51,578 nt of DNA from a virus. The position numbers were made by a program, and so were the translations under genes. The notes below the pieces were generated by a model. It made no database searches. It was given only the letters and a program-made list of their open reading frames with translations, and was not told the origin of the DNA. Each line of letters opens with the position of its first letter. Positions within the stretch are counted from its first letter, which is position 1. Shown piece after piece: positions 237 to 45,243 of the stretch. The stretch is from positions 1 to 51,578 of IMG/VR virus record IMGVR_UViG_3300011420_000010, one strand, 5' to 3'.

Positions 237-254
237 GAAACTAACGTAACGAAA

Positions 255-2777: not shown

Positions 2778-3868
2778 CGCTCCACCTCCTTCTTCTTGAG
2801 CGGCTTGCGGTAAACGTCGCTGAAGTTGCCGCTCGTGATCGGACCGAACATGTCGGACCGACCGTACTTCCCGACGAGTGCGTTGGGGTTGGCGTAGTGC
2901 GGGCCGCCGTGAACCCAGTTCCAGATGTCAAGCAGAAGCGGCTGGAAGAACTTCTCCTCCCACTGCTCCAGCATCTCCGTCTTGAACTTCATCTTCCAGC
3001 GTTTGAAGTAATGGTCCTCGTCCTTGGCGATCGTCTCCGTCAACCGCTCCGTGAACGTCGGCAGGTCCTCGCCGCTCTTCTTCGAGGGCGTCGACTGCGG
3101 GTTGCGGATGACGTTGTAGAGGACGCCCTTCGGCCAAGCGCCAAACTCCAGCCGCATGCAGAGGGCGTACATCATGACCTGAAGGTCGAGGTGCATGCAG
3201 TCCTCGATCTCGAACTCATCGATGCGGCTCTTCGTCTTCGTCTCGAAGAGCCAGTATCGCTTCAGCCCCTTCGTTGGCTTAACGGACTTGCCGCTGTCTT
3301 CAAGGAAGACGCCGTCGAAGATGCCGTGGAGCGGGATCGGGAAGTTCAGTGGCCAGTGATCGTACTCGACGTCGAACGCATACTCGACGTCGACCCACTT
3401 GCGGGCCGTGTCTTCCTTGCCGTACTTCCGTTGATACGTCGGCCAGAGGGCCGCGGTCTTGGCGATGGAGAGATGAAGGTCCTCGACACGGCGGACCGAC
3501 GCCTGCGGGTTCTCCTCCTTGAAGACGCCGTCGTAGAAGTGGAGGACCTTCTCGATCCGCTTCTCCTTGCCGCGGTTCTGGTACTGCCTGCCCAGGAGCC
3601 AGTGCCAGAGTTCGCCGAAGTCGAGAGCGGCCGACGTCCGTGTCGACCGCCAGCCTTCCGCATACCGCAGGCGGAACTGCTCGCGACATTCCAGCCAGCG
3701 GCCGATGCTGCTGACCGAGAGGCCGTCGCGGCGCAACTGCCATCGCTGCGACTCCCGCTCCTGGGAGTGAATGCGCTTCGGCAGGTCACGCGCTTTTCCG
3801 CTGCTTCCCTTTTCCCTTGCCTCGCGGAGTCTTTGCATGAAGCTGCGCGTCCGTGCTTTGACGGCCAT
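2774..3868 (-). CDS. PD-(D/E)XK exonuclease (RecB/Cas4-like)
   Basis: A 364-residue RecB-family nuclease. The order of motifs is: LSVSSIGRWLECREQFRLRY (about 50-69), an S-x-C-x-F-Y entry segment typical of AddB/Cas4-like nucleases; DFGELWHWL with the motif I His (about H88); GIFDGVF (D185); LFETKTKSR (E209-x-K211); and LQVMMYAL (Q230...Y234). These supply the metal ligands and lysine of the PD-(D/E)XK active site. A single Cys at the start of the domain and no later Cys cluster argue against an iron-sulphur Cas4. It probably resects dsDNA ends for the Sak4/ssDNA-binding pair. Start at 3868 has AAGGGAAT; the frame is open further upstream. Confidence 0.85.
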   Translation of the reverse strand: MAVKARTRSFMQRLREAREKGSSGKARDLPKRIHSQERESQRWQLRRDGLSVSSIGRWLECREQFRLRYAEGWRSTRTSAALDFGELWHWLLGRQYQNRGKEKRIEKVLHFYDGVFKEENPQASVRRVEDLHLSIAKTAALWPTYQRKYGKEDTARKWVDVEYAFDVEYDHWPLNFPIPLHGIFDGVFLEDSGKSVKPTKGLKRYWLFETKTKSRIDEFEIEDCMHLDLQVMMYALCMRLEFGAWPKGVLYNVIRNPQSTPSKKSGEDLPTFTERLTETIAKDEDHYFKRWKMKFKTEMLEQWEEKFFQPLLLDIWNWVHGGPHYANPNALVGKYGRSDMFGPITSGNFSDVYRKPLKKKEVER

Positions 3869-4280: not shown

Positions 4281-4471
4281 ACCGGCCTCCAGTCCGCCAG
4301 CGCCGCTTGCACGGTCCAGCCGTTCTGCCAGCAGGACTCGAAGTACTTCAGGTCGGCGGGCCGGAGCCGAGCCGCCCGCCGCTGCTCGTGGGCCTTGAGG
4401 TTCAGCCGGTCAACCCAGTCCCGCCAGGTCGGCCAGTCCATGTTCGTCTTCGTTGCGTTGAGTATGCTCAC
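4277..4471 (-). CDS. Small Trp-rich protein of unknown function
   Basis: A 64-residue protein (MSILNATKTNMDWPTWRDWV...) with five Trp residues. It overlaps the upstream gene by 4 bases (ATGA type) and the downstream gene by another ATGA. The end, WQNGWTVQAALADWRPV, is amphipathic. The tight coupling between real genes and the plausible composition support it. No function is assigned. Confidence 0.55.
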   Translation of the reverse strand: MSILNATKTNMDWPTWRDWVDRLNLKAHEQRRAARLRPADLKYFESCWQNGWTVQAALADWRPV

Positions 4472-4992
4472 GAGGCACCTCCTTGCAACAGGTCATGGCC
4501 GTTGATCCGCGGGAACGGCAACGTCTCCTCCGGGCCGGTCGAAGACTCCTCTTCCTGGTCGAAGTCGAGAACCTCCGTTGTCTCCTCGTCAGCCAGACGT
4601 TTGCGGACCTGCTCGTAGACTTTCGGCTCAAGGTTGTCTGCCATCCAACCAAGCGTCGCATAGAGCCAGTCCTCAACGGCCTCGACACGGAGCCGTAGCG
4701 ACGGCTGGTTGTGCCTCTGCGTTGCGAGTTTCCGATCGACCTCCTGCTTCCAATCTTCATCATCTCCGTCGCATTCCGGTTGCCCGTAGTTGAGAAACGC
4801 TTTCCAAGACATGCCGAGACTTTGACAACCGTTGTAGACGTGCGACGGGTTGACATCAAAGCCGAGAACTCGACTGCAGCGACGAGCGGACTCTTGCTGA
4901 GTCCACCGATTCGCCGCGATCGTCCCGCGGTGCTCAAGCAGCCAGCCGCGAACGAGACGACGCTCTTGAGGAGTAAGTACGAGACTCGCCAT
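4468..4992 (-). CDS. Unknown protein with helical N-terminus and acidic C-terminus
   Basis: A 174-residue protein with a consensus ribosome site (AAGGAGGTGTCGG before ATG). The N-terminal approximately 60 residues (LTPQERRLVRGWLLEHRGTI...TQQESARRCSRVLGFDVNPSHV) read like a helix-turn-helix domain. A coiled or helical middle and an acidic end (DEETTEVLDFDQEEESS) follow. The HTH-like segment and position between recombination genes suggest a DNA-binding regulator or replication accessory protein (inference). Confidence 0.6.
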   Translation of the reverse strand: MASLVLTPQERRLVRGWLLEHRGTIAANRWTQQESARRCSRVLGFDVNPSHVYNGCQSLGMSWKAFLNYGQPECDGDDEDWKQEVDRKLATQRHNQPSLRLRVEAVEDWLYATLGWMADNLEPKVYEQVRKRLADEETTEVLDFDQEEESSTGPEETLPFPRINGHDLLQGGAS

Positions 4993-7916: not shown

Positions 7917-8306
7917 CTACCCTCCCGTGAAGGCTTCGGCCTCCTCTCGCATCAAGCCGATCCCAGCCAGATCCACGGCCGGGTCGTCGAGCTTCGCGTA
8001 TGCGTCGAGCGCACTCAACGCTGCCTGCGCCGAGCCGGCGACCGCGATCAACTGGCCCGCGGCCTTCATCATCTCGACCACGCGATCACTGCGGTGCAGG
8101 AGTTCACGGACCGACGGAGCCTTCTTCAGCTTCGGCTCCACCGTCGAGGTCGGGCGGTTGTCTGCAGGGAACTGCCCATTGTTGATGCGTCGTTCACGCA
8201 CCACCTGCACTGCCTTCTTCCAGGGCAACCCGCTGGAGGCTGCCTCCGCTCGAACCTCCGCATTGAACTCCTTCAACGCGGTACCACGCTTCTTTGGTCT
8301 TGCCAT
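7917..8306 (-). CDS. Unknown protein, basic N-terminus
   Basis: A 129-residue protein starting MARPKKRGTALKEFNAEV. The N-terminal half is basic and helical (WKKAVQVVRERRINN). The C-terminal half (VVEMMKAAGQLIAVAGSAQAALSALDAYAKL) is a long Ala-rich helix pair followed by an acidic tail. Start chosen at 8306 because the conserved TAGGAG leader lies just upstream. No family recognised. The charge pattern suggests nucleic acid binding with oligomerisation (inference). Confidence 0.6.
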   Translation of the reverse strand: MARPKKRGTALKEFNAEVRAEAASSGLPWKKAVQVVRERRINNGQFPADNRPTSTVEPKLKKAPSVRELLHRSDRVVEMMKAAGQLIAVAGSAQAALSALDAYAKLDDPAVDLAGIGLMREEAEAFTGG

Positions 8307-8313
8307 CACAATT

Positions 8314-8328
8314 CTCCTATCTTGGGAG
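8314..8328 (-). promoter_or_regulatory. Conserved SD-masking leader, copy 1
   Basis: Minus-strand CTCCCAAGATAGGAG. The outer CTCC can pair with the Shine-Dalgarno GGAG across a 7-base loop, hiding the ribosome site of the gene at 7917-8306. Copies with one base change lie at 9989-10003 and 11231-11245. Confidence 0.55.
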
Positions 8329-8330
8329 AC

Positions 8331-8362
8331 AAAGGAAACAAAGCGGCGGAACGCCCGCCGCT
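8331..8362 (-). terminator. Rho-independent terminator
   Basis: Perfect 8-bp stem AGCGGCGG/CCGCCGCT (8342-8349 with 8355-8362), 5-base loop, then TTGTTTCCTTTG on the minus strand. It lies between the zinc-ribbon gene and the leader of the gene at 7917-8306. Confidence 0.75.
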
Positions 8363-8431
8363 CAACGACGTCGGCCGACACGGCCGATTCGCATCACGAG
8401 CCGAACAACGGTCAACGCGATGCCCAACAGA

Positions 8432-8620
8432 TCACTGAGCAGTTTCACTGGGCGGCTTCTCCTGGGTAGGTAGGTTGTTGATTCGACCACACGCCGCACA
8501 CTTGACCTGCATCCGGCCGACGACGCCCGTCAGGGCGGCATCGCAGCCTCCGCAGAAATAAACGACACGCACCTCGCTGCCAACCCGGCAGTCAACTGAC
8601 TTTGCTTCGACGCCGCTCAT
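8432..8620 (-). CDS. Small zinc-ribbon protein
   Basis: A 62-residue protein with two Cys pairs, YFCGGCDAALTG (C-x2-C) and VKCAACGRINNLP (C-x2-C), spaced as in a four-Cys zinc ribbon of the kind found in phage Com-like translational regulators and transcription-factor-like peptides. TAGGAG precedes the ATG by about ten bases. It overlaps the upstream gene by 29 bases. Nucleic acid binding is likely from the fold; its target is unknown. Confidence 0.65.
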   Translation of the reverse strand: MSGVEAKSVDCRVGSEVRVVYFCGGCDAALTGVVGRMQVKCAACGRINNLPTQEKPPSETAQ

Positions 8621-9014
8621 GGCGACACGCTCCTAACGACATCAACGCCTGGTGGACCTGGTCCGCCACGTCCGCAGGGTCGTATCCGTCATCGTGAATG
8701 GTCTTGAGTTCGAGATGCGTCAACTCCTTGACGATCTCCCGCAGCCGAGTCTCCTTCTGCCAGACGAACTGCGAGACTTGGGAGTACAGTGAACCGCGGA
8801 GCTGCGACATATCGTGGCAGACGAGGTTGCCGTTCTTCCGTCGCAGGAAGTAAAAGAACCCGTCGCCGGAGTCGAGGATCGTTCCGGCGTTGAGTGCGTC
8901 GCAGAGGCCGTTGAACACAACCTTGACGTCGGCCGCGGTGAGGTCGTAGTCTCCGCCCGCTTTGAAGATCTCCTTCGCGAGATCCTCCGCTTGCTTGTCC
9001 GTGATGGCTATCAT
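8592..9014 (-). CDS. Unknown protein
   Basis: A 140-residue protein (MIAITDKQAEDLAKEIFKAGG...). ATG at 9014 is chosen over the GTG at 9020 because AGGAGG lies at ideal distance. FNGLCDALNAGTILDSGDGFFYFLRRKNGNLVC suggests a compact alpha/beta domain, followed by helical VWQKETRLREIVKELTHLELK. No family recognised. It is followed by overlap with the zinc-ribbon gene, so the two are probably made together. Confidence 0.6.
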   Translation of the reverse strand: MIAITDKQAEDLAKEIFKAGGDYDLTAADVKVVFNGLCDALNAGTILDSGDGFFYFLRRKNGNLVCHDMSQLRGSLYSQVSQFVWQKETRLREIVKELTHLELKTIHDDGYDPADVADQVHQALMSLGACRHERRRSKVS

Positions 9015-30216: not shown

Positions 30217-30459
30217 CTACTTTCCTTCGGGCCGCTTGTCGAGGCCTTCCTTCGCCAGCACCGCTGCGACGTCGTCAACGTGCAGGCAGTCGCACATGCA
30301 GGCGTAGTCGTTCACCGGCTGAATCGCGGCGATGTTGCCGTTGCAGTAGTCGTTGCCAGGGACGGCACTGTGAAGGACGCCGTACGAGACGACCTTCCCG
30401 CCTTCCAGCTTGACGATCTTGTCACCGTTCTTCGCTTCGCGTCCATTTCGGTAATGCAT
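30217..30459 (-). CDS. Possible internal start: free C-terminal domain
   Basis: Met170 of the SNase frame has GAAGGT four bases upstream and begins an 80-residue domain (NGREAKNGDKIVKLEGGKVV, YCNGNIAAI, DYACMCDCLHVDDVAAVL) that reads as an independent small protein. Either an SNase fusion or a nested gene; both may be made. Confidence 0.4.
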   Translation of the reverse strand: MHYRNGREAKNGDKIVKLEGGKVVSYGVLHSAVPGNDYCNGNIAAIQPVNDYACMCDCLHVDDVAAVLAKEGLDKRPEGK

Positions 30460-30966
30460 CGATACCTTCTTTCGTTGAGATGCGCGGTACGACCAAGGAG
30501 GAGTCGGCCGCGGGTCCTTCCATAGACCTCGCTTCGCACGTCGAGCATCCTTCTCGAACGCGGCCAGCTCCTCGCTCCTGGAGTACTGCTTGTAATGCCA
30601 GGCCCAGCCGTCGCGCACCATCGCCGCGTTGACTGAACCCTGGAGAATAACCACAGCGACGACGCGTCCGTAGCGGTCCTTCGTCTGCACCTTGAGGTCG
30701 ACTTCCTTGTCGGCCACCTTGGAGCGAAGATAGTCGCGGGCCGCGAGGCCGTGCGGCTGCTTCAGCTCCGGTGCATCGATCTCTGCAAGACGGACGGAGA
30801 TGGGGTCACCTCCTTCTTTCTGAACCTTGATGGTGTCTCCGTCATAAACAGACAGCACGCGATAGTCACCACCCAGCAGAGCGGAGCATGGCCAAAGGAA
30901 AGCGGCGATGACGAGCATCGCGGCGGCCCGGTGCGTTTGATATTCACGCTCGGTCTTCATGCTCAT
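30217..30966 (-). CDS. Secreted or membrane-anchored thermonuclease (SNase) with extra C-terminal domain
   Basis: A 249-residue protein. A hydrophobic segment (AAAMLVIAAFLWPCSALLGG, about 14-33) acts as signal or anchor. The SNase fold follows: VLSVYDGDTIKV (D42, D44), VRLAEIDAPELKQP (R59, D64), DRYGRVVAVV (R101) and the R-x-x-GLW ending (KRGLWKDP). From residue 170 a distinct small Cys-rich domain begins (MHYRNGREAKNGDKIV). It may degrade host or competing DNA outside the cytoplasm. Start at 30966 has only a weak Shine-Dalgarno. Confidence 0.75.
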   Translation of the reverse strand: MSMKTEREYQTHRAAAMLVIAAFLWPCSALLGGDYRVLSVYDGDTIKVQKEGGDPISVRLAEIDAPELKQPHGLAARDYLRSKVADKEVDLKVQTKDRYGRVVAVVILQGSVNAAMVRDGWAWHYKQYSRSEELAAFEKDARRAKRGLWKDPRPTPPWSYRASQRKKVSMHYRNGREAKNGDKIVKLEGGKVVSYGVLHSAVPGNDYCNGNIAAIQPVNDYACMCDCLHVDDVAAVLAKEGLDKRPEGK

Positions 30967-31003
30967 TGTCTTCTGGTTGAAGGTGGCTCTCGTAAGGGAC
31001 TGA

Positions 31004-31678
31004 CTACTGAACCGTCGGAACCGGAGTGTTGGTCTTGAACGTCGCGGCGTCTTGAGACGGCAACGTGCCACTCGGGATCCGGCTGCGGTTGACCTCGCCG
31101 CCGTGCACCTCGCAGATCGTGAAGAGCGCGTTGAGCAGCGAGTGCAGCATTGCGCCTTCGTACTTGGTGATCTGCAGAGTGTCGTGCCGCGAGTCGAGCC
31201 GCGTGGCTTGAACGAAGAAGTCGTCCAACCCGGCGACGAACACGCGGGCGTGCTCGTTCGGGAACAGATCGGACGTCGGCTGCGGGATGTCCTTATCCGT
31301 GCCGTCCAGGGTGTGGACGACCGGGCGGGATGCCGCGGCCGGAAGGACGAGGTCGTCGGCGTTCAGCGATCGCGAGTCGAACTCCTTGCGGATGTCTCGC
31401 GAAGTGTCGGCCGCTTCCTTCTCACGCTGCAGAGTGTTCTCCGGCGCAGGGCCGCTGGGGTTGTAGACGATCCGACGGATCGTGATGTCGAGCTCGTTGA
31501 GGCCCGCCATCATGAAGGCGTTCAGCTCGTTGTTCCAGCCGCTCTGCTGGCGGAACTCCGGACGCACGGTGAGCTGCTTCCGGAATTGGATCACCTGCGC
31601 CAACAGCGTGTGAATCCCGTGGTTGGGGAACCCGAGGTTCGCCCCAGTGAAAGTGTTTTGGATCGCGGGAGCCGGCAT
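31004..31678 (-). CDS. Unknown virion-arc protein
   Basis: A 224-residue protein (MPAPAIQNTFTGANLGFPNHG...). Helical blocks LLAQVIQFRKQL and NELNAFMMAGLNELDITIRRIVY and a second helical part (MLHSLLNALFTICEVHGGEV) with loops of low complexity. Good AGGAGG start. No family recognised. Lies between the SNase and protease genes. Confidence 0.5.
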   Translation of the reverse strand: MPAPAIQNTFTGANLGFPNHGIHTLLAQVIQFRKQLTVRPEFRQQSGWNNELNAFMMAGLNELDITIRRIVYNPSGPAPENTLQREKEAADTSRDIRKEFDSRSLNADDLVLPAAASRPVVHTLDGTDKDIPQPTSDLFPNEHARVFVAGLDDFFVQATRLDSRHDTLQITKYEGAMLHSLLNALFTICEVHGGEVNRSRIPSGTLPSQDAATFKTNTPVPTVQ

Positions 31679-31688
31679 AATTTACCTC

Positions 31689-33332
31689 CTAGCCAATTCG
31701 AATGTTGTGACGGACAAGGAACTCCTTCGAGACCCATCCGTCCAGCTTGTCCGCTGTCTCCTTGCCGCCAAGGCACGGAATACTTCCATCGCGGAGTAAG
31801 CCAACTGCTTCACGATATAGCGACCCGATCAAAGCTTGATGGCCGACGTTCATCCCGGCGAACTCCGCTGCCCGTTTCGCAGCGAGGGTCTCCGCGTAGC
31901 CAACGTCCAATTCGGGATAGATGTTTACGTTCTGCACTTGCGTCGGAGCAGAGATCGTCCGCTCCCCATCGCGACTTTCGTACAACGCTTCCTCCGCGGC
32001 GCAAGGGCCGTCGTGCCCTGCCTCGCGTGTGCAATACCAGCCTTCAGGTGCTTTGTCGCAGGCCCGCGGCCTAGAGAGCGGCTTCTGCCGACGCCGCTTG
32101 ACACGCTCGACGACCTTCTCCTGGATGCGATTGCCCACCTTGCGGGCGACGCGGCCCGCCAGCCAGGCCTTGATGCCGACACCACCAGCGAGGCCCGCGG
32201 CGAGTGTGCCGAGGATCGTCCCCAGGATCTGCCGCTCGTACCAAGGTTTGGTCGCCTCGATCGCGGGCGTCTCCTCTTCTTCCTGCTTCGGTTCAGCCGG
32301 CTTCGTCTCCTGCTTCGGCTCGTCCGGCCGGGCTGGTTCCTTCGGCCATGCTTCATAGCGTTGACCGCTGTTCGGTGGAGGATCGGATTCGCGGTACGTC
32401 TCCGGACCGGGCGTCGGCGAGCCTTGCTGTGGTGCCTGTTGCGGCGGTGCCTGCTGCCACCAGCCATAGCCGTTGCCTGTCGACTGCCACTTGCGGAAGC
32501 CGGCTGGCGGCTGCACGCCCGGTGGCAGGCAGTACTGCTTGCCGTCCGGCCCGAGGTAGCAGTCCGCCACCTGCTCGCCCGGTCGGACAACTGCGACGAG
32601 TGGACCGGCTGGATCGACGACGTGCTTGTCCGCCGCGGAGATCCTCCGCTCGAACCCGGCCTTGCCTTCAAAGGCGCGTGCCAGGTTCGCGATCGTCTGC
32701 GCAGTACCGGTGCCGGCTTGAGTGTTGTTCCAGGCGACGAGGCCGATGATCTTCTCCCCCTTCTCGTCGAGGAGCGGAGAGCCGCTCCGGCCCTGCGCCG
32801 GCGCAGGCGAGAAGATGACGACTCCTTCGAACGTCTTCTCGTGTGCGACCTTGACTGCGGTCGACCAGCCGCCGCTCGGGCAGCCGATCGTCACCATCGG
32901 CCGACCGTACTTCGCTTCGCCGGGTTTCGCCAACGGCACAACCCTGGGGAGGAACGCACCGAAGTGTCCGACGCTGACCTCGACAATTGCAACGTCCTGA
33001 TCCGTGGCGTCGTGCCGCCGACGGAACCGCACGCGGCCCGGGACCTTCTTCGACACAACGCCACTGACAAAGAACTCGCACTGGCACATGTCCGCGGTCG
33101 GGCCGACGACGTGTTCGTTCGTCAGGATCCGGATCGTGAACTGGTCACGATGGAAGACGGTGCCGGTGCCGCGGCCTCCGTCCAACGCCGTGATCCGACA
33201 GACCGCGTCCATTGCCTCGCTGACTCCACCGTGCACCGTCTCGCACCCGACATGGATGACAGCTGCGACCGCGATCAGAGCGATGAGCATCCACGCCGCT
33301 TCAACCGCCAACGCTTTCAGTTCTTCCTTCAT
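31689..33332 (-). CDS. Membrane-anchored trypsin-like serine protease
   Basis: A 547-residue protein. The first hydrophobic segment is at about 14-28 (WMLIALIAVAAVIHV). A chymotrypsin/DegP-like domain follows with TNEHVVG (H74), DQDVAIVEV (D113) and GRSGSPLLDEKGEKIIGLVAW (S183). A Pro/Gln/Glu-rich linker (about 270-360), a second hydrophobic Gly-rich segment (369-388) and an Arg-rich stretch lead to a C-terminal domain with Cys (DKAPEGWYCTREAGHDGPC). Predicted topology puts the protease in the periplasm. Start at 33332 with GGAGATG. Targets unknown. Confidence 0.75.
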   Translation of the reverse strand: MKEELKALAVEAAWMLIALIAVAAVIHVGCETVHGGVSEAMDAVCRITALDGGRGTGTVFHRDQFTIRILTNEHVVGPTADMCQCEFFVSGVVSKKVPGRVRFRRRHDATDQDVAIVEVSVGHFGAFLPRVVPLAKPGEAKYGRPMVTIGCPSGGWSTAVKVAHEKTFEGVVIFSPAPAQGRSGSPLLDEKGEKIIGLVAWNNTQAGTGTAQTIANLARAFEGKAGFERRISAADKHVVDPAGPLVAVVRPGEQVADCYLGPDGKQYCLPPGVQPPAGFRKWQSTGNGYGWWQQAPPQQAPQQGSPTPGPETYRESDPPPNSGQRYEAWPKEPARPDEPKQETKPAEPKQEEEETPAIEATKPWYERQILGTILGTLAAGLAGGVGIKAWLAGRVARKVGNRIQEKVVERVKRRRQKPLSRPRACDKAPEGWYCTREAGHDGPCAAEEALYESRDGERTISAPTQVQNVNIYPELDVGYAETLAAKRAAEFAGMNVGHQALIGSLYREAVGLLRDGSIPCLGGKETADKLDGWVSKEFLVRHNIRIG

Positions 33333-34039
33333 CGAATCATCTCCGATACTTCTACGCACTTGTCGTGGAACGCCGGGAGGTCGTCCATGTACGAGTGCTC
33401 GACTCCGTCAGTTAGCACTGTCTCCTGCTGCAGACGTGTGTTTTCCGAAAGGATGAATTGATGCCCACTCGGTCTGTTGGACGTCTGTCGAAACGCCCAC
33501 AGGTTCATCACGTTGTCCGGTACCTTGATACGAGGTCGGTACAATGAAGACAATGACAATGGATTGAATACGATCCATGGCGGGAGGATTGGGGAACGAT
33601 AGACCGCATCGCTTAAGACCATGCTCTCGACCTTCATCTGCCGCTTGCGACACTCGCGAGCGAACTCCATCGCGCCCCAGCCGCCTCCCCATGAGTAGGC
33701 GTAGACGTTGATTCTCTGGCCCTTCCCGTTTGAGGTTAGCCAGATCCACTCCGCGGCGGACCACATGCAGTCGTTCCATTGGAGCAGGACGACCCGACTC
33801 CGCGGGCCGTGTAAGTGGTTGAGTTTCTGCGAGACCTTCCACATGCCGCTCGGCTCGCCGATCCGTTGCCAGAAGCCGCTGATACATACGTGCCACTGCC
33901 ACGGGTCGGGCCGCAGCAGCTCCGCACCGCACACGTTGTGCCCAGTTAAGGAGCATACCACCGGAACCCGCTCCCTCGCCTGGGCGACGAGATCTGGAAC
34001 GAGCTTCGCTTCTCCGGAGAGGTCGACAAACCGCGGCAT
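33329..34039 (-). CDS. Alpha/beta hydrolase (esterase/lipase-like)
   Basis: A 236-residue protein. INVYAYSWGGGWGAMEFA gives the nucleophile elbow (S116 in S-W-G-G), VLSDAV an acid (D144), and DGVEHSYMDDLPAFHD a His (H215): the Ser-Asp-His order of the fold. No signal peptide. It overlaps the protease gene start by 4 bases. A role in lysis, as the LysB esterases of other phages, or in surface polymer deacylation, is possible. I see no peptidoglycan hydrolase elsewhere, so this is the best lysis candidate (inference). Confidence 0.65.
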   Translation of the reverse strand: MPRFVDLSGEAKLVPDLVAQARERVPVVCSLTGHNVCGAELLRPDPWQWHVCISGFWQRIGEPSGMWKVSQKLNHLHGPRSRVVLLQWNDCMWSAAEWIWLTSNGKGQRINVYAYSWGGGWGAMEFARECRKRQMKVESMVLSDAVYRSPILPPWIVFNPLSLSSLYRPRIKVPDNVMNLWAFRQTSNRPSGHQFILSENTRLQQETVLTDGVEHSYMDDLPAFHDKCVEVSEMIR

Positions 34040-35978: not shown

Positions 35979-38900
35979 CTAGTAAAGGGATACGTACCGA
36001 GTCAAGCTACCTGCCGCTCCCGAGACCGCTGCGCTTGAGCCGGCGTGTTCGACATCTCGACGGACGAGACCCTGAACCGCGGCGGACGTCACGAAGATCG
36101 ATGCCGCGAAGGCCCGGTCCCTACTCAAGGAGGCCGCGGTCGATGTCGTCGATGCGCATGTCCCGCTGAACCCGGCGTGCTTCAGCACTGAACCGGACAC
36201 CGAGCTCAGTGCAGAGACGGTACCGACGAGGTCGACATTCTTTCGTAGGATGGCAGATGCCCCAGTTGAAGAAGCGATTGCACCCTGCAATCCCCATGTC
36301 GAGTTCAGGCGGCCCGTCGAGGTCGTCGTCGACGCCACCGTCCCCGTCAATGCGCGGTCGTTGCCAAGCGTACCGCCGCTCGTCGTCTGGCATGTGATCG
36401 CTCCAGAGAGTTCGACGTCTTCGCGAAGGATGCCTGCCGTGGAGGCCGCGGCCGTGCAGGTTCCCGCCAGACGCAATGGACGCTGGAAGTTGCCGGTCGC
36501 CGCGGACTGGGCCGACACCGTCTCCGACATCAGCTTGGTCGCCCGCAGGATGGCCGGCGCAGCGGACTGCACCGCGACGGTTCCGACGAGCAGACGATCG
36601 ACGTGGAGAGCAGCCGCGGCTGCGGACTGTGCGGTGACCGTTCCGACGAACGGCGGCTCTCGTCGCAGTAAGCCGGTCACATCGGCGACAGCCGCAACCG
36701 CGGCGCTCAATCCACGCTCCCGACGAGCATCCGCGGCCGCAGACGTTGTGCATGCAACCGCCCCTTCCAGACCGCTGGCACGGTCAAGCTCCGCGGTGGC
36801 GTTGCTTGCGGCCGACACGTTGCCTGCGACTTGGCGATCGACGCGAAGGTGCGCGGTCGCAGAGGAGGTGGCAGCGACTGCGCCGCTCATGGGAGTGTAT
36901 CGAGAGAGCAGACCCGCGGCAGTCGTCGTCGCCGCCAGGGCACCGACGAGTTCGCGATCCGCGTGCATATGTCCGGACACCGTCGCGGTGAATCCGGTCA
37001 CGGTCTGCAATGTATCGGTCGACTTGAGGAACCCGACTGCAGTTGTCTGCGCGTTGACCGTTCCGACCAGCTCCTTGTCTGCTGCCAGGATACCGGCCAT
37101 CGTGGAGGCCGCCGTGACCGTGCCACGCAAGGCCGGTTCCTGGAGCAGATTGGCGGTAATGGAAACCACCGCGGCGATCTCGCCTTGCAGCTCCACGTAT
37201 CGTGAGAGCAGGGCAGTGGACGTTGATGCCGCGGCGGATGTACCCGCAAGCTTACGGTCGATGGACAGTGCACCGACCGGCGTGCACACCGCAGCGACGG
37301 AGCCTTGCGACGTGCCCAGTTCGACGCTGAGGATGCTCGGCCCGACGACCGAGATCATGTCGATGCGGTCCGTCTCCATGTTCATGCCAGGTCCGTCGAC
37401 CGAGAGGCTGGCCTCGCTGAACGACTGCGCCGCGACACCGTCGGTGGGCGGGCTGGAGAGCGAGGCCTCCAGCTCGACGAAGGTTGGCGTCCACAGCGGT
37501 GTATCGTGCACGACCGACAGGACGTTGACGCCGGTGTCCTCCTCTTCGTCCCACTTGAAGAAGAGGTTCGGCATGCCGAGACCGGAGTCGAGCGATGCGA
37601 ACTGCAGCGTGCCGGTTCCGGCGTCGGTCGCCTTGATGAAGAAGACGATCTTCGTGCCGACCCATCCGGCACGGTCGACCAGCTCCTGGATGAGTGACGT
37701 GACGTCGTAGTTGAGGATCTCCGGGTCCATGCCGAAGGCACGCGACTCGATCGTCTCGGCCGTGGTCAACGCCATGCCATCGGCAGAAGCTACCGATGTC
37801 GGAGCGGCCGGATCGTCGGCATCGACCGCCTTAATGACGATGTCGACGGTGTCGGTGTTGCCGCCGACAAGCTTGAGTTGAAGGTTCGCACCGCTGATCG
37901 TCTGGCCTTGCGGCACCGCGACACCGTCAAATGTGACGAACGCATGAGTTCCCGAGCCAGTCGAATTGAGGTTGAGAGTCGAGCCAGCGACGTCGAACGT
38001 AGCTCCACCTTCAGTCCAGTAGCCATCCTCGGCAGAGGCATCGACATGGTCGTTGTAGGCATAGTATCGATTCGATTCGAGGGAGACGAAGCGGCCGTAC
38101 AGCAGGTCGCTTGGACCGACGGTCGAGACCGCGGCGACGGTGCCAGCCAATGGCATGTCTCGGCCAAGCGTTCCGTTGACCGTCGACTGCGCGGCGACCT
38201 CGCCCAGGAGCCGCTCCGGGAGTTCGAGGCCCGGTCCACTGTCCGCCACCGTCGACACAGCCGCGACGGTGCCGATCAAGGAGACGATGCGCGTCGCATG
38301 GCCCGCAGCCGTGGACACCGCGGCGACGGTTCCGTCAATGCAGTAGGGCGAGACGCTGAGTCGAGCCGCGGTGCCGCCGCTCTGCGCCGCGACCGTGCCA
38401 GAGAGTGCGCTGTTCCAGTTCATCGTGCCGCTTGCGGCGGACACGGCGTCGACTGTACCCTCCATCTTCTTCAGCGTGGTGAAGTACCCGACGCACGTCG
38501 ACACAGCGGCGACGGTTCCCGCCAACGCCTGGTAGACGGTGTAGTACGCAGTCAGCTCGCCGATGACGTCGACGAACATCGTGTCGCCGCCACCACCGGA
38601 CCATTGATGATGCACGCCAAAGCCTGCATCGTTGAGATGGACGCCTAGCAGCGTCATCGCCCAAGGGTCCGTCGGGCCGCCGTAGACCTTCGTCGTATCG
38701 CTGCCAGTCCAGGTGCCCTCGTCGCCGGCTTTGTCTTCGCTGCTGCCCGCGGCGTTCTCGATGAGGTTGACGTTCTCGTCTTGGACTCCGCCCGACTGCC
38801 GACCTTCGACCGTGTACTCCAAGCCGAGGAGCGTTGCGTCGGCGGGCAGGCTGAACCCGTAGTCGAGCATCTCCAGGGTACAGTTCGTATCACCGCCACC

Positions 38901-39011
38901 GAACAACGCAGACGCGTACGCGTCGTCGGACGCTTCGGCATTCGCGAGGTCCACGAACGCAGCTTCGCCGACGGAGTTGATCGTTCCCGGTGTTCGTGTC
39001 TGTTGCGACAT
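35979..39011 (-). CDS. Giant fibre protein with 29 twenty-residue repeats
   Basis: A 1010-residue protein. An N-terminal domain (1-160) is followed by about seven repeats of the form GTVAAVSTxxGxL (about 165-305). A globular insertion of about 260 residues (FVSLESNRYYAYNDHVDASAED, carbohydrate-binding-like beta) comes next. From about residue 570 to the end, 22 consecutive repeats keep an exact 20-residue period without insertion or deletion (G-[TAS]-[VI]-x-A-x-[ST] then G-x-L). The pattern fits a beta-solenoid or triple beta fibre shaft. ATG at 39011 is inside TGATG of the upstream peptide gene. Probably the main tail fibre. Confidence 0.75.
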   Translation of the reverse strand: MSQQTRTPGTINSVGEAAFVDLANAEASDDAYASALFGGGDTNCTLEMLDYGFSLPADATLLGLEYTVEGRQSGGVQDENVNLIENAAGSSEDKAGDEGTWTGSDTTKVYGGPTDPWAMTLLGVHLNDAGFGVHHQWSGGGGDTMFVDVIGELTAYYTVYQALAGTVAAVSTCVGYFTTLKKMEGTVDAVSAASGTMNWNSALSGTVAAQSGGTAARLSVSPYCIDGTVAAVSTAAGHATRIVSLIGTVAAVSTVADSGPGLELPERLLGEVAAQSTVNGTLGRDMPLAGTVAAVSTVGPSDLLYGRFVSLESNRYYAYNDHVDASAEDGYWTEGGATFDVAGSTLNLNSTGSGTHAFVTFDGVAVPQGQTISGANLQLKLVGGNTDTVDIVIKAVDADDPAAPTSVASADGMALTTAETIESRAFGMDPEILNYDVTSLIQELVDRAGWVGTKIVFFIKATDAGTGTLQFASLDSGLGMPNLFFKWDEEEDTGVNVLSVVHDTPLWTPTFVELEASLSSPPTDGVAAQSFSEASLSVDGPGMNMETDRIDMISVVGPSILSVELGTSQGSVAAVCTPVGALSIDRKLAGTSAAASTSTALLSRYVELQGEIAAVVSITANLLQEPALRGTVTAASTMAGILAADKELVGTVNAQTTAVGFLKSTDTLQTVTGFTATVSGHMHADRELVGALAATTTAAGLLSRYTPMSGAVAATSSATAHLRVDRQVAGNVSAASNATAELDRASGLEGAVACTTSAAADARRERGLSAAVAAVADVTGLLRREPPFVGTVTAQSAAAAALHVDRLLVGTVAVQSAAPAILRATKLMSETVSAQSAATGNFQRPLRLAGTCTAAASTAGILREDVELSGAITCQTTSGGTLGNDRALTGTVASTTTSTGRLNSTWGLQGAIASSTGASAILRKNVDLVGTVSALSSVSGSVLKHAGFSGTCASTTSTAASLSRDRAFAASIFVTSAAVQGLVRRDVEHAGSSAAVSGAAGSLTRYVSLY

Positions 39012-39082
39012 CAGCGGTTCCGCGGGAAGTAGATGAGGAAGCAGGTGACCAGCACGACGCACACACCGAACAGCACGAGCAT
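39011..39082 (-). CDS. Tiny single-pass membrane peptide
   Basis: 23 codons: MLVLFGVCVVLVTCFLIY then PRNR. A single hydrophobic helix with positive tail. It starts in TGATG after the upstream peptide and ends in TGATG of the fibre gene, so all three are coupled. Holin- or spanin-like size, but the function is unknown. Confidence 0.55.
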   Translation of the reverse strand: MLVLFGVCVVLVTCFLIYFPRNR

Positions 39083-39744: not shown

Positions 39745-40305
39745 TTACGAAGAGGCGGAACCCGACTTATGCGTACGCTGCCGCTGGCCCAGCTTGAGGG
39801 ACTCGTTCGGCGTGGCAGCGTACTCCACCGGAGCTGCCTCGTCCTCTGGCGTCCGGTGCTCGCGGTGCTGACGCAGCCACGACGTGACACCCCAGCTCTT
39901 CCGTTCGCCGGTGTCCTTGTCGATCTCGCCGTAGATCTCTTCCTGCGACGGTAGGTACTTCGGCCGACCGTTGCTGCCATAGCCGCCGCAGTTCGCCACT
40001 GCGGTTTGTTGGACAGGGCCGGTCTCGTAGGTCTGAACGGAGATGGGGTGCAGGCGGCTGAACGTTCCGTCCGGCGTGCGGCGGAGGGGGTGGATCCGCG
40101 GGCGTCCTTGCTTGGCGGTCGGTGCAGACGCAGGAGACGTCGGTGCCGCAGTGGGCGCAGTAGGCGGAGCCGCGGCCTCCGATGGGCGGTGGGAGCAGCC
40201 AGTTTCCAGGAGGGCAACATACGGAGTCAGCGTCTCGATCGTTAGCCGCCTTCTCTCCGCACGAACAACAAGCTTCCGACGCACTGCATCCATCGACGTT
40301 GACAT
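39745..40305 (-). CDS. Unknown protein with Pro/Ala-rich linker
   Basis: A 186-residue protein starting MSTSMDAVRRKLVVRAERRR. A Pro/Ala/Thr linker (about 45-70) leads to a folded C-terminal part (RPKYLPSQEEIYGEIDKDTGERKSWGVTSWLRQHREHR). AAGGAG and spacing are good. The gene almost wholly overlaps, in the +1 frame, the C-terminal half of the gene at 39767-40810. The C-terminal part has ordinary gene-like composition. Confidence 0.6.
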   Translation of the reverse strand: MSTSMDAVRRKLVVRAERRRLTIETLTPYVALLETGCSHRPSEAAAPPTAPTAAPTSPASAPTAKQGRPRIHPLRRTPDGTFSRLHPISVQTYETGPVQQTAVANCGGYGSNGRPKYLPSQEEIYGEIDKDTGERKSWGVTSWLRQHREHRTPEDEAAPVEYAATPNESLKLGQRQRTHKSGSASS

Positions 40306-40810
40306 CGAACGCTCCTTCCTGGATGGTGAAGGAGCAGCCGGTGCACGCCAATACGAGCATGAGAATGGAACCGACCAACGCCTTCTGTGGTTTCGCTGTG
40401 AACGCTTCGAGGAACGCTCGGTTCCTTCGCTCCGCATACTCGCGGCCGATCTTCTCGCCGACCTCTTTGAACGCCTGCTCGACGCGGGCTGGTTCGAACT
40501 CGCCGCGGCCGAAGACCCAGTCCTTCATGTTGACTGCGACGGTCTTCGTATTCGCACGCCGCTCCGCCATCACCGCCTCGCGACGACCTCTGTCGAGTTC
40601 GCTGTCCTCGTCCTCGTCTTCGTCCTCTTCGTCCTCTTCGTCCTCCAGGTCGGAGTCGAGTTCGTCCTCGTCTTCGTCGTCCCAGTCCTCGTCGTCTTCG
40701 TCTTCCGCCCGGAGCCAGTCGATGAGCTTCGACCACCAGGCCCAGACGAAGATAGCCACCGCCGCAATACCTCCGCCCCACAGGATCCAAGCCGCCAGAT
40801 TGTCTCGCAT
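39767..40810 (-). CDS. Membrane protein with acidic stretch and second hydrophobic/lipobox-like segment
   Basis: An open frame of 347 codons. The N-terminal transmembrane helix (AAWILWGGGIAAVAIFVWAWW) is followed by approximately 40 Asp/Glu residues and a helical part (VEQAFKEVGEKIGREYAERRNRAFLEAF). SILMLVLACTGCSF comes next, which looks like a second hydrophobic segment or a lipobox, then a Cys-rich part (GCSASEACCSCGEK, YCAHCGTDVSCVC). From 40305 down it overlaps the gene at 39745-40305 in another frame. The far C-terminus is low-complexity and may be only an open frame. The true end of this gene is uncertain; a spanin-like overlapping pair is one reading. Confidence 0.5.
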   Translation of the reverse strand: MRDNLAAWILWGGGIAAVAIFVWAWWSKLIDWLRAEDEDDEDWDDEDEDELDSDLEDEEDEEDEDEDEDSELDRGRREAVMAERRANTKTVAVNMKDWVFGRGEFEPARVEQAFKEVGEKIGREYAERRNRAFLEAFTAKPQKALVGSILMLVLACTGCSFTIQEGAFDVNVDGCSASEACCSCGEKAANDRDADSVCCPPGNWLLPPPIGGRGSAYCAHCGTDVSCVCTDRQARTPADPPPPPHAGRNVQPPAPHLRSDLRDRPCPTNRSGELRRLWQQRSAEVPTVAGRDLRRDRQGHRRTEELGCHVVAASAPRAPDARGRGSSGGVRCHAERVPQAGPAAAYA

Positions 40811-41164
40811 ACAAACCTCCGTGTTGAACTCGGTCCTCTCTTATATCGGCCCCACCCTTGCGAGGGGTGCTCAGGCGGGCCCTCGGTTTCAGGGGTCCTA
40901 GTTTAACCGCTAGTGGGCAAGGGGCCTTTCGGAATTTGAAGCCCGCCGATGGAAGTCCGACTGGCCACTGGCCTTATCAAATGCCACTAGGGCACTTGCT
41001 AGGACCCATTGGGCCGCGGGCAGGCCGGCTCCTCGGCCGTTCGAGTGGCCCGGTGGGAACGCGGCGGAGGCGCAAGAAGAAGGCCCGGTCGCCGCGAAGG
41101 ACGACCGAGCCAACGGCCGGGTGACAGAGGCCGGATGCGTTTAGTAGGGTATGCCTCCTTTGGG
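40811..41164. other. Noncoding spacer with structured element
   Basis: No gene with a ribosome site in these 354 bases. It contains the nested-stem element at 40893-41007 and a CACCC/GGGTG hairpin near 40855. No tRNA cloverleaf was found. Confidence 0.5.
40893..41007. ncRNA. Candidate structured RNA (nested stems)
   Basis: Outer stem of 9 perfect pairs, GGGTCCTAG (40893-40901) with CTAGGACCC (40999-41007). Inner stem of 7 pairs, CTAGTGG (40910-40916) with CCACTAG (40984-40990). A GGCC-ACT-GGCC hairpin (40963-40973) lies in the middle. The element is 115 bases and sits alone in a noncoding spacer. Strand and function are unknown. Confidence 0.45.
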
Positions 41165-41575
41165 TTAGGGGTTGATTACCACTGCCTCCGCCATGAAGCA
41201 GATTGTATCGCCCGCGATCGGACTCCGCGGGTTCGCGACAGCGGCTTGCCCGACGAGCCGCCCGTCGTGCTTGAACAACGCGTAGCCGTGGACCGCAGGC
41301 CACGTTTGCGTCGCCTCCGGGAAGGAGATCCGTTGCGCGTTGACGAGGTGGTCGTCCTGCCATCGCCATGTACTGCACACGGCTCGACCGTATCCGGGCA
41401 CAGACAGTTCACGACCGAACACGTCGAGCAACCCGATGGACAGCTGCTGCACCGATACGTGCGGCATCTCCACCTTCGGCTTGAGGTCGGCGTCCGGTGC
41501 CGCTTGAAACACAATGCCGAACGGGATCGCCGCCGCGGCAGTCGTCTTGAGGAAGTTGCGTCGACTCGGATTCAT
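41165..41575 (-). CDS. Tat-exported paralogue of the tail fibre protein
   Basis: A 136-residue protein. The N-terminus MNPSRRNFLKTTAAAAIPFG is a textbook twin-arginine signal (S-R-R-x-F-L-K, then hydrophobic Ala-rich core), with cleavage expected near residue 26. The body, NAQRISFPEATQTWPAVHGYALFKHDGRLVGQAAV...PIAGDTICF, aligns with the phage fibre family at 39269-39661 (ITFPEATGSWGTITHFAAFD, GDTPRF). A fibre-type domain sent out of the infected cell is unusual. Start at 41575 with CAGGAG. Confidence 0.75.
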   Translation of the reverse strand: MNPSRRNFLKTTAAAAIPFGIVFQAAPDADLKPKVEMPHVSVQQLSIGLLDVFGRELSVPGYGRAVCSTWRWQDDHLVNAQRISFPEATQTWPAVHGYALFKHDGRLVGQAAVANPRSPIAGDTICFMAEAVVINP

Positions 41576-41609: not shown

Positions 41610-42494
41610 TCAGTTGGTGGAACCGCCGTTGGGAACGTTGACGAGGATGCGCGGGTTCAGCCGCAGCTGGTCGTTGGTCCAGTCCTGCGCCCGCTTCAGC
41701 TGCTCCTCGTATCCGCCGTTGATGTCGCCGGTCGCCGCGAACAGCATGCCGAGCAGGCCGGAGTGCACCTGCTTCAGCCGCTTCTCCGCCGCGATGCGGT
41801 CGAGCTTCTCCCGCAAGGCCGCGGGCGTCTCTGCCTTCTCCTCGCACGTCTCCGGCTCGTCGACCAGCCGCGGCTGCCACGCACAGACGGCGTCCGTCGG
41901 AAGGTTCTCCGACCACGACGACCGCCAGTTCACGCCGTCGTACTCCGCGTCGCAGATCATCCCGTACGGTGGCATGCAGAGGACCTTGACGCGATACATC
42001 CCCGGCTCCGACGGTCGGTACTCCCTCGTTGAGACGAAGCCATCCTCATCGGCAACGCCGCGGAGAAGGACAAGGTGCGTGTCGAGGCCTTGCTGGATCA
42101 CCGCATAGGACGAAGCATCCGGGTCCGCGACGAGCGTCGGCCGCGGGTCGACGCAGCAGCCGACCTGCTTCGCATGCTCCAGCTCCTGGCGAGAACGCGG
42201 CGTCGCCACGAAGTGGGCGACGTCCGCTGCTGTCTTCGGCGGATCGGCCGCCGCACGGACGTTGTTGGCGATGCAGGCCTGAGGCTCGCCGCCCTTCGGC
42301 CATAGCGTCAGCGCCGGCCAGAAGTCTTCGTTGCCGTCGACGATGACGAACTCGTCTTCCGAATGCAGCAACGTGAACGTGTCATCGACCTCCGTTCGTG
42401 TCGGCATGCAAACCGTTTCAGAGGCCTCCTGGAAGATGCGAAGCTCGTCGAGTTCATCGGTCCGAACCAGTATCGCGAATCGTGGGTAAATCAT
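41610..42494 (-). CDS. First gene of the virion arc, unknown function
   Basis: A 294-residue protein: MIYPRFAILVRTDELDELRIF..., FTLLHSEDEFVIVDGNEDFWPALTLWPKG, MYRVKVLCMPPYGMICDAEYDG and a helical C-terminus (ALREKLDRIAAEKRLKQVHSGLLGMLFAATGDINGGYEEQL). No motifs recognised. AGGAA before the ATG. It lies directly after the R2 element. Confidence 0.55.
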   Translation of the reverse strand: MIYPRFAILVRTDELDELRIFQEASETVCMPTRTEVDDTFTLLHSEDEFVIVDGNEDFWPALTLWPKGGEPQACIANNVRAAADPPKTAADVAHFVATPRSRQELEHAKQVGCCVDPRPTLVADPDASSYAVIQQGLDTHLVLLRGVADEDGFVSTREYRPSEPGMYRVKVLCMPPYGMICDAEYDGVNWRSSWSENLPTDAVCAWQPRLVDEPETCEEKAETPAALREKLDRIAAEKRLKQVHSGLLGMLFAATGDINGGYEEQLKRAQDWTNDQLRLNPRILVNVPNGGSTN

Positions 42495-42525
42495 GTCGGG
42501 ATTCCTAATTAATAAAAGGTGCAGG

Positions 42526-42593
42526 TTGAGGGGGTAAGGGTGGGTGGAAAACCACCGGGTAGCAGAATTAGAAGAAACGAAGCATTAGTTGAA
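42526..42593. repeat. Module-boundary element R2
   Basis: Second copy of the element at 12584-12649: TTGAGGGGGTAAGGGTGGG, hairpin GGTGG-AAAA-CCACC (42543-42556), then CGGGTAGC, A-rich stretch, GAAGCATTAGTTGAA. The arms and loop differ from R1 but the hairpin is kept, suggesting conserved structure. Confidence 0.65.
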
Positions 42594-42724
42594 CATTGTA
42601 AACTCTACTCAACGCACGCGAACTCGCTGTCCGGGCGGGCCGCGGGCACCCACCCTCCACCCCTGGTTGACGCATTTTATTCGATTCACAGTCCACCTCG
42701 TAGTTTCTAGGATGGATTGAGGTT
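42594..42724. other. Noncoding spacer upstream of R2
   Basis: Spacer between the CsrA-like gene stop and R2. AT-rich patch (CATTTTATTCGATT) near 42671. No gene or sure promoter seen. Confidence 0.4.
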
Positions 42725-43102
42725 TTAGCCCAATAGGAGTGGGTCCGTCTGGGAATTTGCACGGGCTGTTTTTGTCGCATTTCGGGCCAGCTCGGCAATG
42801 CAGACTGCCAGCTTCTGGACGTCCGCATGGGTGTCACTGGTGTGGGATCGGAGTGCTATCTCCATCGCCATCGACTCGATCTGTTCAAGCGAAACGTGCA
42901 TTTCGGCTCCCTTCAAATTCCCAGTACAGGTCAGTTGTATGCGATCGTCGAGACGATCCTCACGCAAGAAACGAAACGATTGCGGCCCCTGGAAACCTAA
43001 CCGAACAACACTCGGCGTGAGCCGCCCCACGCCGATCGTGTATCGCTCATCGCCGTGCACGACGAGGATGGACTGCCCGAGCTTGCGGTCGACGGCGTAC
43101 AT
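42725..43102 (-). CDS. CsrA-like RNA-binding translational regulator with C-terminal extension
   Basis: A 125-residue protein. Residues 1-52 align with CsrA: MYAVDRKLGQSILVV (R6 kept), YTIGVGRLTPSVVRLGFQGPQ, and FRFLREDR (R47, equivalent of CsrA R44). These strands form the intertwined dimer that binds GGA in RNA hairpin loops, typically at Shine-Dalgarno sequences. Residues 53-125 are an added helical domain (MHVSLEQIESMAMEIALRSH...). TGATG overlap with the primase-helicase gene. Last gene of arc 1, just before R2. Confidence 0.75.
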   Translation of the reverse strand: MYAVDRKLGQSILVVHGDERYTIGVGRLTPSVVRLGFQGPQSFRFLREDRLDDRIQLTCTGNLKGAEMHVSLEQIESMAMEIALRSHTSDTHADVQKLAVCIAELARNATKTARANSQTDPLLLG

Positions 43103-45243
43103 CAAGGCTTCTCCCTTCCGGCCGCGGCCGAGTCGAGGTGCAGGTCGAAGGGCTTCGCGATGCTCCACAGCTGTCGCATCGTCCGTGATACACGCCACTC
43201 GTCGCCCGGTCGGCCCGGCCCGGCCGCGCGTCGAGCTGCCTTGGTGGGTGCCACCACCCCCAACAGAGCCAAGTCGCGGAGCCGCCGCTTCAACATGTCG
43301 ACGGACATGGACGACTGCTGCGCGATGTCAACGTTCCGCAAGTCCGAGCCGCCCATCTCCATCATGGCAGCCACCACATCGAGGTTGAACCCGATCGCGG
43401 TATCGAAGGCCACGCGCTCCACGAGCCGATAGACTTCATGGTCGACCTTCTTCTTGCCGCGAACCACTGCCGCGGCCATGGCCAGCTTGCTGAACTGGGC
43501 ACAGAGCCGAGTCCCGATCTCACTGACCGGGCGGTAGACAAGGTCCTCTCCGCCACTGCTGGACCAGCTCCGCTTCCACTCCACCTCGTGACGGAGCGTG
43601 GCCACGATCTCGGCGAGGCCTCCGAGTCGCAGTGCAGCCCACTCGGGCATCATCTCACGAGCCTCGCATGCGGAGACGTCGCGGTCGAGGAAGGCCAACG
43701 ACGCGGCCTTCATCCGCTTGGCCTTCTCCAGCTCATGCCCGGCCCCCATGATGATGGCGTAGTACAGCGACTGCCGCTGGCTGAAGCCCATGTCCTTCAG
43801 CTGGAACTTGAGGAAGCGTTCACCCATCGTCGCGTTGGACTCGCCGTGGATCCGGTTGGTGACGCCCGCCAAGATGTTGAAGAAGCCGCGGTACTCGCGG
43901 TACTCCCCATTGCCGAACTTTCGTTGGATGAGGCCGTCGTACGCACCACGGAAGACGCCATGGACCTGCTGCGCGTCGAAGGGGTTGAGGCCCAGGATCT
44001 CGGTCCAGTCCTTGTAGACGCAGCACATCCCGAGCATGTTGGGGATGTCCGATGGGTCCTCGCCGTTGGCTCCGAGCTTGAACCCGGAGACCAGGTTCTT
44101 CGCAGTGACCGAGCTGCGGTAGAACACCTCCTGCACCTCCTCCAATGAGAGGAGGATCTCCGTCTTCCCCGAGCCGGGCGGTCCGACGAGGAAGACCCAG
44201 AGCGGCACGCCTGGCATCTGCGTGGAGAGCGTGATGGCGTACGTCAACCAGAGCGCCTCGACGAGGTCGGGCCGCATCTTGAACTCGGCCTTCTCGAACG
44301 CGGCCACCGTCTTCTCGAACGTTGGGTTGGACTTGGGCCGCGGCCTCTTCTCCTTCTTCCGCATGTCCTCCGGTGCCGCTTGATCCGCCCGCCTGTGCTG
44401 GCGTTTGATCATCTCCTTGAACTCAGCGTACACCGTTGCGGTCGAAGCCTCCTCGTCGATGCATCGCTTCACGATATGGTCGCGGACGTCCCACTTCTCT
44501 GGGTAGGTTTCGGGCCAGCATTGGAACCGCTGCTTGAACACGACACCGTTCAAGGTCTTGACCGAGTGCTTCAAGCTGTAGGTGTCGCCATCCGCGTCGT
44601 TGTCATACCGCCAGATGACGGTGCGGTTGCGGAAGTACGGTGCCCATTCCGGCTTGAAGATGCGGGCACCCGGAACTGCGACGACGATGGCCTTGCGTTT
44701 GATGCGGCGGTTGAGCCATCGCATGGCGCCTCCATCGAACTCGCCTTCGCAGATGTCGACGGGCCAGTCCTTCTTCTTGGGGTCCAGCAGCTCGGGCAGG
44801 TTCCAGAGCGAGACCTGGCAGTCCGACGTCGACCGCGGCTTGCCGCCCGGTCGCCAGCGCCGCAGGTCGCAGACGCGGCCCTTGGCGTTGAAGTGCGGGA
44901 TGAGCCAGTCGCCCGTCAACTCGTTGAAGGCCATGCCCATGCCCTTGAAGCAGGACGCTGGCATGCCGCCGCGGGCCTTCGAGAGAGCCGCCCAGTGGCG
45001 GTCCTCCGTCTCTCCGCGGCAGTGCTCCAGCCACTGCTCAAGGAAGGTCACGAGGTTACCTGACCGTCCGCACGTGTCCGGACTCGACGAACACACCCAC
45101 TGCGTTGACTCCGGCTTCACATGGAACGACCGCGTCTTCCCGCAGAAGGGACAGTCCGACTGCATGGACTGCCCACTCCTGGAGGTGAACTCAACGCCGT
45201 GCTCCTTGAAGGGCCGGAGAGGATCCTTCTCCTTATCCGGCAT
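43102..45243 (-). CDS. Primase-helicase (TOPRIM and AAA/SF helicase)
   Basis: A 713-residue protein. Zinc-binding CPFCGKTRSF (C31, C34) with WVCSSSPDTCG (C51, C58) as in DnaG; TOPRIM DICEGEFDGG (Glu) and VIWRYDNDADGD (Asp-x-Asp). A linker rich in basic residues follows, then helicase Walker A VFLVGPPGSGKTEILLSL and the VYKDWTEI segment. The C-terminal helical domain contains a winged-helix-like part. Start at 45243 chosen as the first sensible Met; overlaps the upstream gene by 11 bases. With the polymerase it forms the replisome core. Confidence 0.85.
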   Translation of the reverse strand: MPDKEKDPLRPFKEHGVEFTSRSGQSMQSDCPFCGKTRSFHVKPESTQWVCSSSPDTCGRSGNLVTFLEQWLEHCRGETEDRHWAALSKARGGMPASCFKGMGMAFNELTGDWLIPHFNAKGRVCDLRRWRPGGKPRSTSDCQVSLWNLPELLDPKKKDWPVDICEGEFDGGAMRWLNRRIKRKAIVVAVPGARIFKPEWAPYFRNRTVIWRYDNDADGDTYSLKHSVKTLNGVVFKQRFQCWPETYPEKWDVRDHIVKRCIDEEASTATVYAEFKEMIKRQHRRADQAAPEDMRKKEKRPRPKSNPTFEKTVAAFEKAEFKMRPDLVEALWLTYAITLSTQMPGVPLWVFLVGPPGSGKTEILLSLEEVQEVFYRSSVTAKNLVSGFKLGANGEDPSDIPNMLGMCCVYKDWTEILGLNPFDAQQVHGVFRGAYDGLIQRKFGNGEYREYRGFFNILAGVTNRIHGESNATMGERFLKFQLKDMGFSQRQSLYYAIIMGAGHELEKAKRMKAASLAFLDRDVSACEAREMMPEWAALRLGGLAEIVATLRHEVEWKRSWSSSGGEDLVYRPVSEIGTRLCAQFSKLAMAAAVVRGKKKVDHEVYRLVERVAFDTAIGFNLDVVAAMMEMGGSDLRNVDIAQQSSMSVDMLKRRLRDLALLGVVAPTKAARRAAGPGRPGDEWRVSRTMRQLWSIAKPFDLHLDSAAAGREKP

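Follow-up and report, generated by a model that had tools for sequence, protein, structure and literature searches.

The documented place of Gp80-type proteins (Pfam Gp80, PF23140) is fibre I of podophage GP4 (PDB 8jou) and, by fold, the phage neck, and no receptor-binding role is documented for them. The Sf14 neck (9C39) bears two sets of whiskers, gp30 and gp31, in a description that concerns the whole neck and not chain K specifically (PMC11821841). Chain 9c39_K of this neck and chain 9mt4_K of the JohannRWettstein connector are both virion parts. Some phage proteins act in the host envelope, and superinfection exclusion by proteins of the inner membrane is a well-established strategy. According to PMC10883804, SieA of phage P22 blocks injection at the inner membrane, and gp15 of HK97 is predicted to be located there. 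In phage T4, the periplasmic antiholin RI has a signal peptide and acts on the holin (PMC8385771).

The protein described here, P2, has a beta domain homologous to that of Gp80 and GP4 fibre I. The latter have an N-terminal helix, whereas P2 lacks it and has a twin-arginine (Tat) signal instead. Its predicted fold is like those of 9c39_K and 9mt4_K, but P2 is apparently targeted for export. The location and use proposed for P2 would be analogous to those of the inner-membrane exclusion proteins (P22 SieA, HK97 gp15 and those of Tuc2009 and TP-J34), which are also products of accessory phage genes. However, P2 has no sequence match to these proteins, and its combination of a Tat signal with a virion-derived domain is not described for SieA-type exclusion proteins in the excerpts of PMC10883804. 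Like T4 RI, P2 would be a phage protein with an N-terminal export signal, but the signal peptide of RI drives a Sec substrate as well (PMC8385771), and the RI domain is unrelated to that of P2.

The window, i.e. the whole stretch of DNA analysed, is 51,578 nt long. This 51.6-kb record comes from a genuine tailed phage, as it carries terminase, portal, Mu-F-like head protein, capsid and tape-measure genes, together with DNA polymerase A and ThyX. No integrase was found among the window genes scanned with Pfam, and the phage may therefore be virulent. The features of the P2 region are listed in Table 1. The conventional Gp80 protein of this phage, P1, matched Pfam Gp80 with an E-value of 8.4e-48 and GP4 fibre I (8jou chain a) both by sequence (E 1.9e-19) and by fold (TM 0.80, E 1.6e-8). 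P1 was found at 77% in the related locus L070, and also in L073 and L057. Phage CcrBL9 (L062) has two Gp80 genes, and in L073 a single 261-aa protein (8001-8786, plus strand) is a tandem fusion of two Gp80 domains.

Table 1. Coordinates of P2, P1 and neighbouring features in the window.
Feature	Position	Strand	Description
P1	39269..39661	-	Conventional Gp80 protein (fibre I/whisker type), 130 aa; conserved in relatives
Intergenic gap, 354 nt	40811..41164		Between P2 cassette and lysis/virion module
Intrinsic terminator	41082..41111	-	Directly after P2; 12-bp stem, -22.7 kcal/mol, then TTCTTCTT
P2	41165..41575	-	136 aa; Tat-type N-terminus 1-27, linker 28-42, Gp80/whisker-type beta domain 43-136
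Gp80-type domain of P2	41168..41449	-	Residues 43-136; predicted: seven strands ordered as in P1, N-terminal helix absent
Putative Tat signal of P2	41495..41575	-	PF10518 and TIGR01409 above cut-offs; hydropathy
294-aa protein	41610..42494	-	First gene of two-gene cassette; no relative found
Intergenic gap, 230 nt	42495..42724		Upstream of cassette, after CsrA-like gene

The P2 ORF, which the first-pass annotation had given without a strand, is real and was found on the minus strand; the plus-strand frame over the same positions contains no relevant protein. Read from stop to stop, the frame has a single residue ahead of the ATG (PMNPSRRNFLK...). As the upstream stop lies so close, the gene cannot start any earlier and SRRNFLK is truly N-terminal. 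The gene has an AGGAG ribosome-binding site 7 nt 5' of the ATG, and its GC content by codon position is of the coding type.

The N-terminus of P2 is MNPSRRNFLKTTAAAAIPFGIVFQAAPDADLKPK, in which the n-region MNPSRRNFLK is followed by an uncharged h-region, TTAAAAIPFGIVFQAAP. There is no charge in the 17 residues that follow SRRNFLK (residues 11-27), and P2 has both the S/T-R-R-x-F-L-K motif and the uncharged h-region of Tat substrates. The twin-arginine signal read earlier from S-R-R-N-F-L-K passed both curated Tat models, with 23.4 bits for Pfam TAT_signal PF10518 (cut-off 22.7) and 18.6 bits for NCBIfam TIGR01409 (cut-off 16.7). A compact beta domain preceded by such a signal would suit the Tat pathway, whose substrates are exported in the folded state. 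When the sequence was read by eye, no good signal-peptidase site obeying the (-3,-1) rule for small residues was seen, the candidates being QAA and PDA. Some Tat signals are known to stay uncleaved; for lack of a good (-3,-1) site that of P2 may do so as well, leaving the domain tethered. Neither a lipobox nor an outer-surface anchor was seen in the sequence. A C67-C126 disulphide was weighed as a possible mark of export and dropped, as two cysteines also occur in 3 of the 96 Gp80 domains collected.

A relaxed scan for Tat-like signals covered 12,924 ORFs in 168 loci. Besides P2, it gave one genuine-looking N-terminal Tat signal, that of a chromosomal Tat protein (L060), the few other matches being internal or off-consensus. 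No Tat-like start was present in any of the 96 Gp80 domains, and the ten relatives detected by the P2 alignment search of viral contigs all had ordinary or non-Tat starts. The earlier remark that virion proteins normally lack Tat signals is thus borne out for Gp80.

The main rival explanation is that P2 is a second virion whisker or fibre protein that is never exported, the Tat-like start being the product of chance drift from MG-SFSNYLENK to MNPSRRNFLKTT. Phages with two Gp80 copies do exist, as seen above in CcrBL9 and in the L073 fusion, and in the alignment P2 shares M1, S4, N7 and L9 with P1-type N-termini. Moreover, SRRNFL of P2 aligns onto S-x-S-N-Y-L, which is conserved at the N-terminus of ordinary Gp80s, so that the motif could have arisen by drift. 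However, this explanation is unlikely in view of the two curated models passed and the great rarity of genuine-looking Tat starts among the ORFs scanned. It also has to account for the loss of the charged helix, since the conserved N-terminal helix of Gp80 (SNYLENKLLDH) is absent in P2, which has an uncharged hydrophobic stretch instead, and for the position of P2 outside the virion operon, ahead of a strong terminator.

The matches between the P2 body and P1 that had been pointed out before (SFPEAT/TFPEAT, ALF/AAF and IAGDTICF/TTGDTPRF) are present, and both Pfam Gp80 and hhalign indicate homology beyond chance. P2 residues 54-134 matched the Gp80 profile, starting at profile position 41, with an E-value of 4.4e-5 and 24.2 bits, slightly below the gathering cut-off of 27. 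Comparison of P2 with the P1-family profile gave an hhalign probability of 91% (E 1e-6), and tblastn against the Gp80s of other phages gave E-values of 1e-8 (L188) and 7e-6 (L072). By these sequence comparisons the P2 body is homologous to Gp80 despite its sub-cut-off Pfam score. The family residues G-Y-x-R, FPEAT, W and GDT are retained.

The AlphaFold model of P2 was confident over about residues 43-129, whereas residues 1-42 were unstructured (pLDDT mostly below 50). Strands were predicted at 45-50, 65-67, 70-73, 76-79, 95-101, 107-117 and 123-127 in P2, and at 28-33, 55-57, 60-62, 67-70, 84-93, 99-112 and 126-128 in P1, whose helix 6-18 has no counterpart in the P2 model. The best two PDB matches of P2 were the phage-neck proteins 9c39_K and 9mt4_K (TM by target 0.59 and 0.56, probability 1.00), which were also among the best fold matches of P1 (0.66-0.70). 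8jou, the top fold match of P1, was not among the best 50 matches listed for P2. The first-pass annotation had named non-matching folds as grounds for rejecting its reading of P2. On this point it was not refuted by the models, which share their strand order and the two phage-neck matches, on which the comparison was based rather than on superposition, and the predicted beta-domain fold of P2 is the same as that of P1.

P2 is nevertheless very diverged, with a branch length of 2.76, and the tree does not place it, the branch being long and the support weak. Within the motif R-x-x-C-x-x-W, the C and W of P2 are common to L070 and L073, which hints at an origin by duplication of P1 rather than by acquisition. 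The very long branch, together with the lack of relatives and the absence from syntenic phages, would also be expected of a duplicated gene fragment that is drifting without function. This is quite improbable, as the ORF is intact, with coding-type GC and a good ribosome-binding site, and as the predicted fold is confident and the family residues listed above are kept.

P2 and the 294-aa gene upstream form a two-gene cassette. Both are absent from the syntenic relatives L070, L073 and L057, which carry P1, and no relative of the 294-aa protein was found in any database searched. Neither gene matched a known defence or exclusion family in PADLOC. When the gap was dinucleotide-shuffled 400 times, no shuffle gave a terminator-type stem as long as the 12-bp one after P2, although across the wider region terminator-like sites were no more frequent than expected by chance. 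On the cassette strand, a scan for promoters of the sigma-70 type only found none; the terminator and the gaps are present. From the gaps and the terminator, P2 probably ends a transcript separate from the P1/virion unit. Absence of an accessory cassette from syntenic relatives is a mark of morons and superinfection-exclusion genes, and P2 and its neighbour have, on the sequence, the anatomy of a moron-like cassette.

The next gene downstream of P2 (39767-40810) encodes a protein that has a membrane segment at its N-terminus and weakly matches holins (phrog_20, E 0.0047). By analogy with T4 RI, P2 might accordingly be an envelope or lysis-timing factor whose exported domain touches the adjacent holin/spanin system. 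This seems very unlikely, since the terminator and 354 nt separate the two genes, no connection between Gp80 domains and lysis is known, and a membrane-segment gene is kept at the same place in L070, which lacks P2.

A second protein combining a Tat signal and a Gp80 domain was not found in viral contigs (searched with P2 alone and with an alignment query), phages, plasmids or bacterial genomes, nor in 297 genomes of the phylum of L060, most of these searches being sensitive to fairly close relatives only. The phage search with P2 gave only weak matches to jumbo phages of Caulobacter and Brevundimonas, over residues 79-132, and the two matches in bacterial genomes covered the signal alone (residues 1-50). 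P2 is in these searches a lineage-specific orphan. At the sequence level, a Tat-signalled whisker paralogue is real, and it is unusual.

The first-pass annotation had interpreted P2 as a possible exported decoy that could mask receptors on the cell surface. This interpretation is partly supported: the Tat signal, the homology, the predicted fold and the rarity within Gp80 stand, but the receptor decoy goes further than the data. A fibre-type domain would indeed be exported, and prophage proteins that hinder the accessibility of outer-membrane receptors are known, as noted in PMC10883804. However, Gp80-type proteins sit in fibre I or in the neck, away from any documented receptor binding. In diderm cells, the Tat pathway alone takes proteins as far as the periplasm or the outer side of the inner membrane, not to the cell surface, and P2 has no visible surface anchor to take it further. 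A surface decoy would be easier in a monoderm; it is the least natural reading if the host is diderm, and we hold it to be highly improbable.

Our preferred reading, to which we give a probability of roughly 40%, is that P2 is a whisker paralogue of moron-like character that is targeted to the Tat pathway, perhaps stays anchored in the membrane and interferes with superinfection. P2 would be a diverged Gp80 member whose virion-type N-terminal helix was replaced by, or evolved into, a twin-arginine signal. Its domain would fold in the cytoplasm, and the Tat machinery of the host would then move it to the outer side of the inner membrane. As no good signal-peptidase I site was seen, it may remain tethered there, facing the periplasm. 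The most plausible use of the exported domain would be superinfection exclusion, in which it could behave as a dominant version of a virion component and hinder related virions that enter or compete. Export, tethering and function are what we infer, and a piece of virion-like protein probably reaches the host cell envelope in this way. Several points count against the preferred reading. P2 is a single example, so there is no conservation to show selection on the signal; the motif could be drift, as discussed above; the domain is diverged, there is no canonical cleavage site and no exclusion or defence family is matched.

If the signal works, the phage uses the folded-protein export of its host to place a virion-derived domain in the envelope, for which no description was found in the literature searched. 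This would suggest a general route from virion parts to superinfection-exclusion factors, and the combination of a Tat signal with a virion domain would become a simple search rule for further cases.

Viral contigs were also scanned for the pattern of a strong ribosome-binding site, an ATG and S/T-RRxFLK. This gave 14 stretches, including about ten in-frame Tat-like starts on predicted ORFs, two of which look cellular. In L202, an ORF of 149 aa (8441-8890) on a 225-kb contig scored 25.6 bits, above the Pfam Tat cut-off. In L201, a 156-aa ORF (2572-3042, minus strand) with the Tat-like N-terminus MLDLSRRGFLKAFGAAVTVP scored 17.8 bits, below that cut-off. It is flanked by head closure Hc1 (3219-3545) and tail terminator (2189-2575) genes, and the same module contains a Gp77 fibre-tail adaptor gene of the GP4 type (4451-4720). 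The L201 ORF is unrelated to P2. With two unrelated Tat-like ORFs located within or next to virion modules, a systematic survey of the phenomenon would be worthwhile. One might go further and see in P2 a virion neck-whisker domain turned into a Tat-exported anti-phage factor of the envelope, belonging to a wider unrecognised class of Tat-signalled virion-module proteins with the L201 ORF as second, unrelated case; we consider this broader proposal doubtful. Further small ORFs with Tat-like N-termini were seen on the viral contigs L199, L202, L205, L207 and L208.

Several other genes of the phage were recorded. The protein at 42725-43198 (minus strand) is CsrA-like (Pfam 15.1 bits, below the cut-off), is conserved in L070 at 914-1183 and is a candidate phage-encoded translational regulator. 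The region 39745-40810 (minus strand) encodes the acidic protein with the N-terminal membrane segment and weak holin match, which contains an internal lipobox-like LACTGC, and a proline-rich ORF (39745-40437) overlaps its gene out of frame; this is perhaps a spanin-type arrangement. A trypsin-like protease (31689-33359, minus strand) has a strongly hydrophobic segment close to its start and a staphylococcal-type nuclease (30217-31071, minus strand) has one beyond residue 45, and both may be further envelope-acting phage proteins. The 1027-aa protein at 35979-39062 (minus strand) has repeated units of the L-x-GTVAAxSxxxGxL type, and similar repeats adjoin the Gp80 gene in L057, L070 and L073. 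Finally, the protein at 249-977 (plus strand) of L070 has a C-terminal domain like the CTD of the RNA polymerase alpha subunit (25.0 bits, above the Pfam cut-off).
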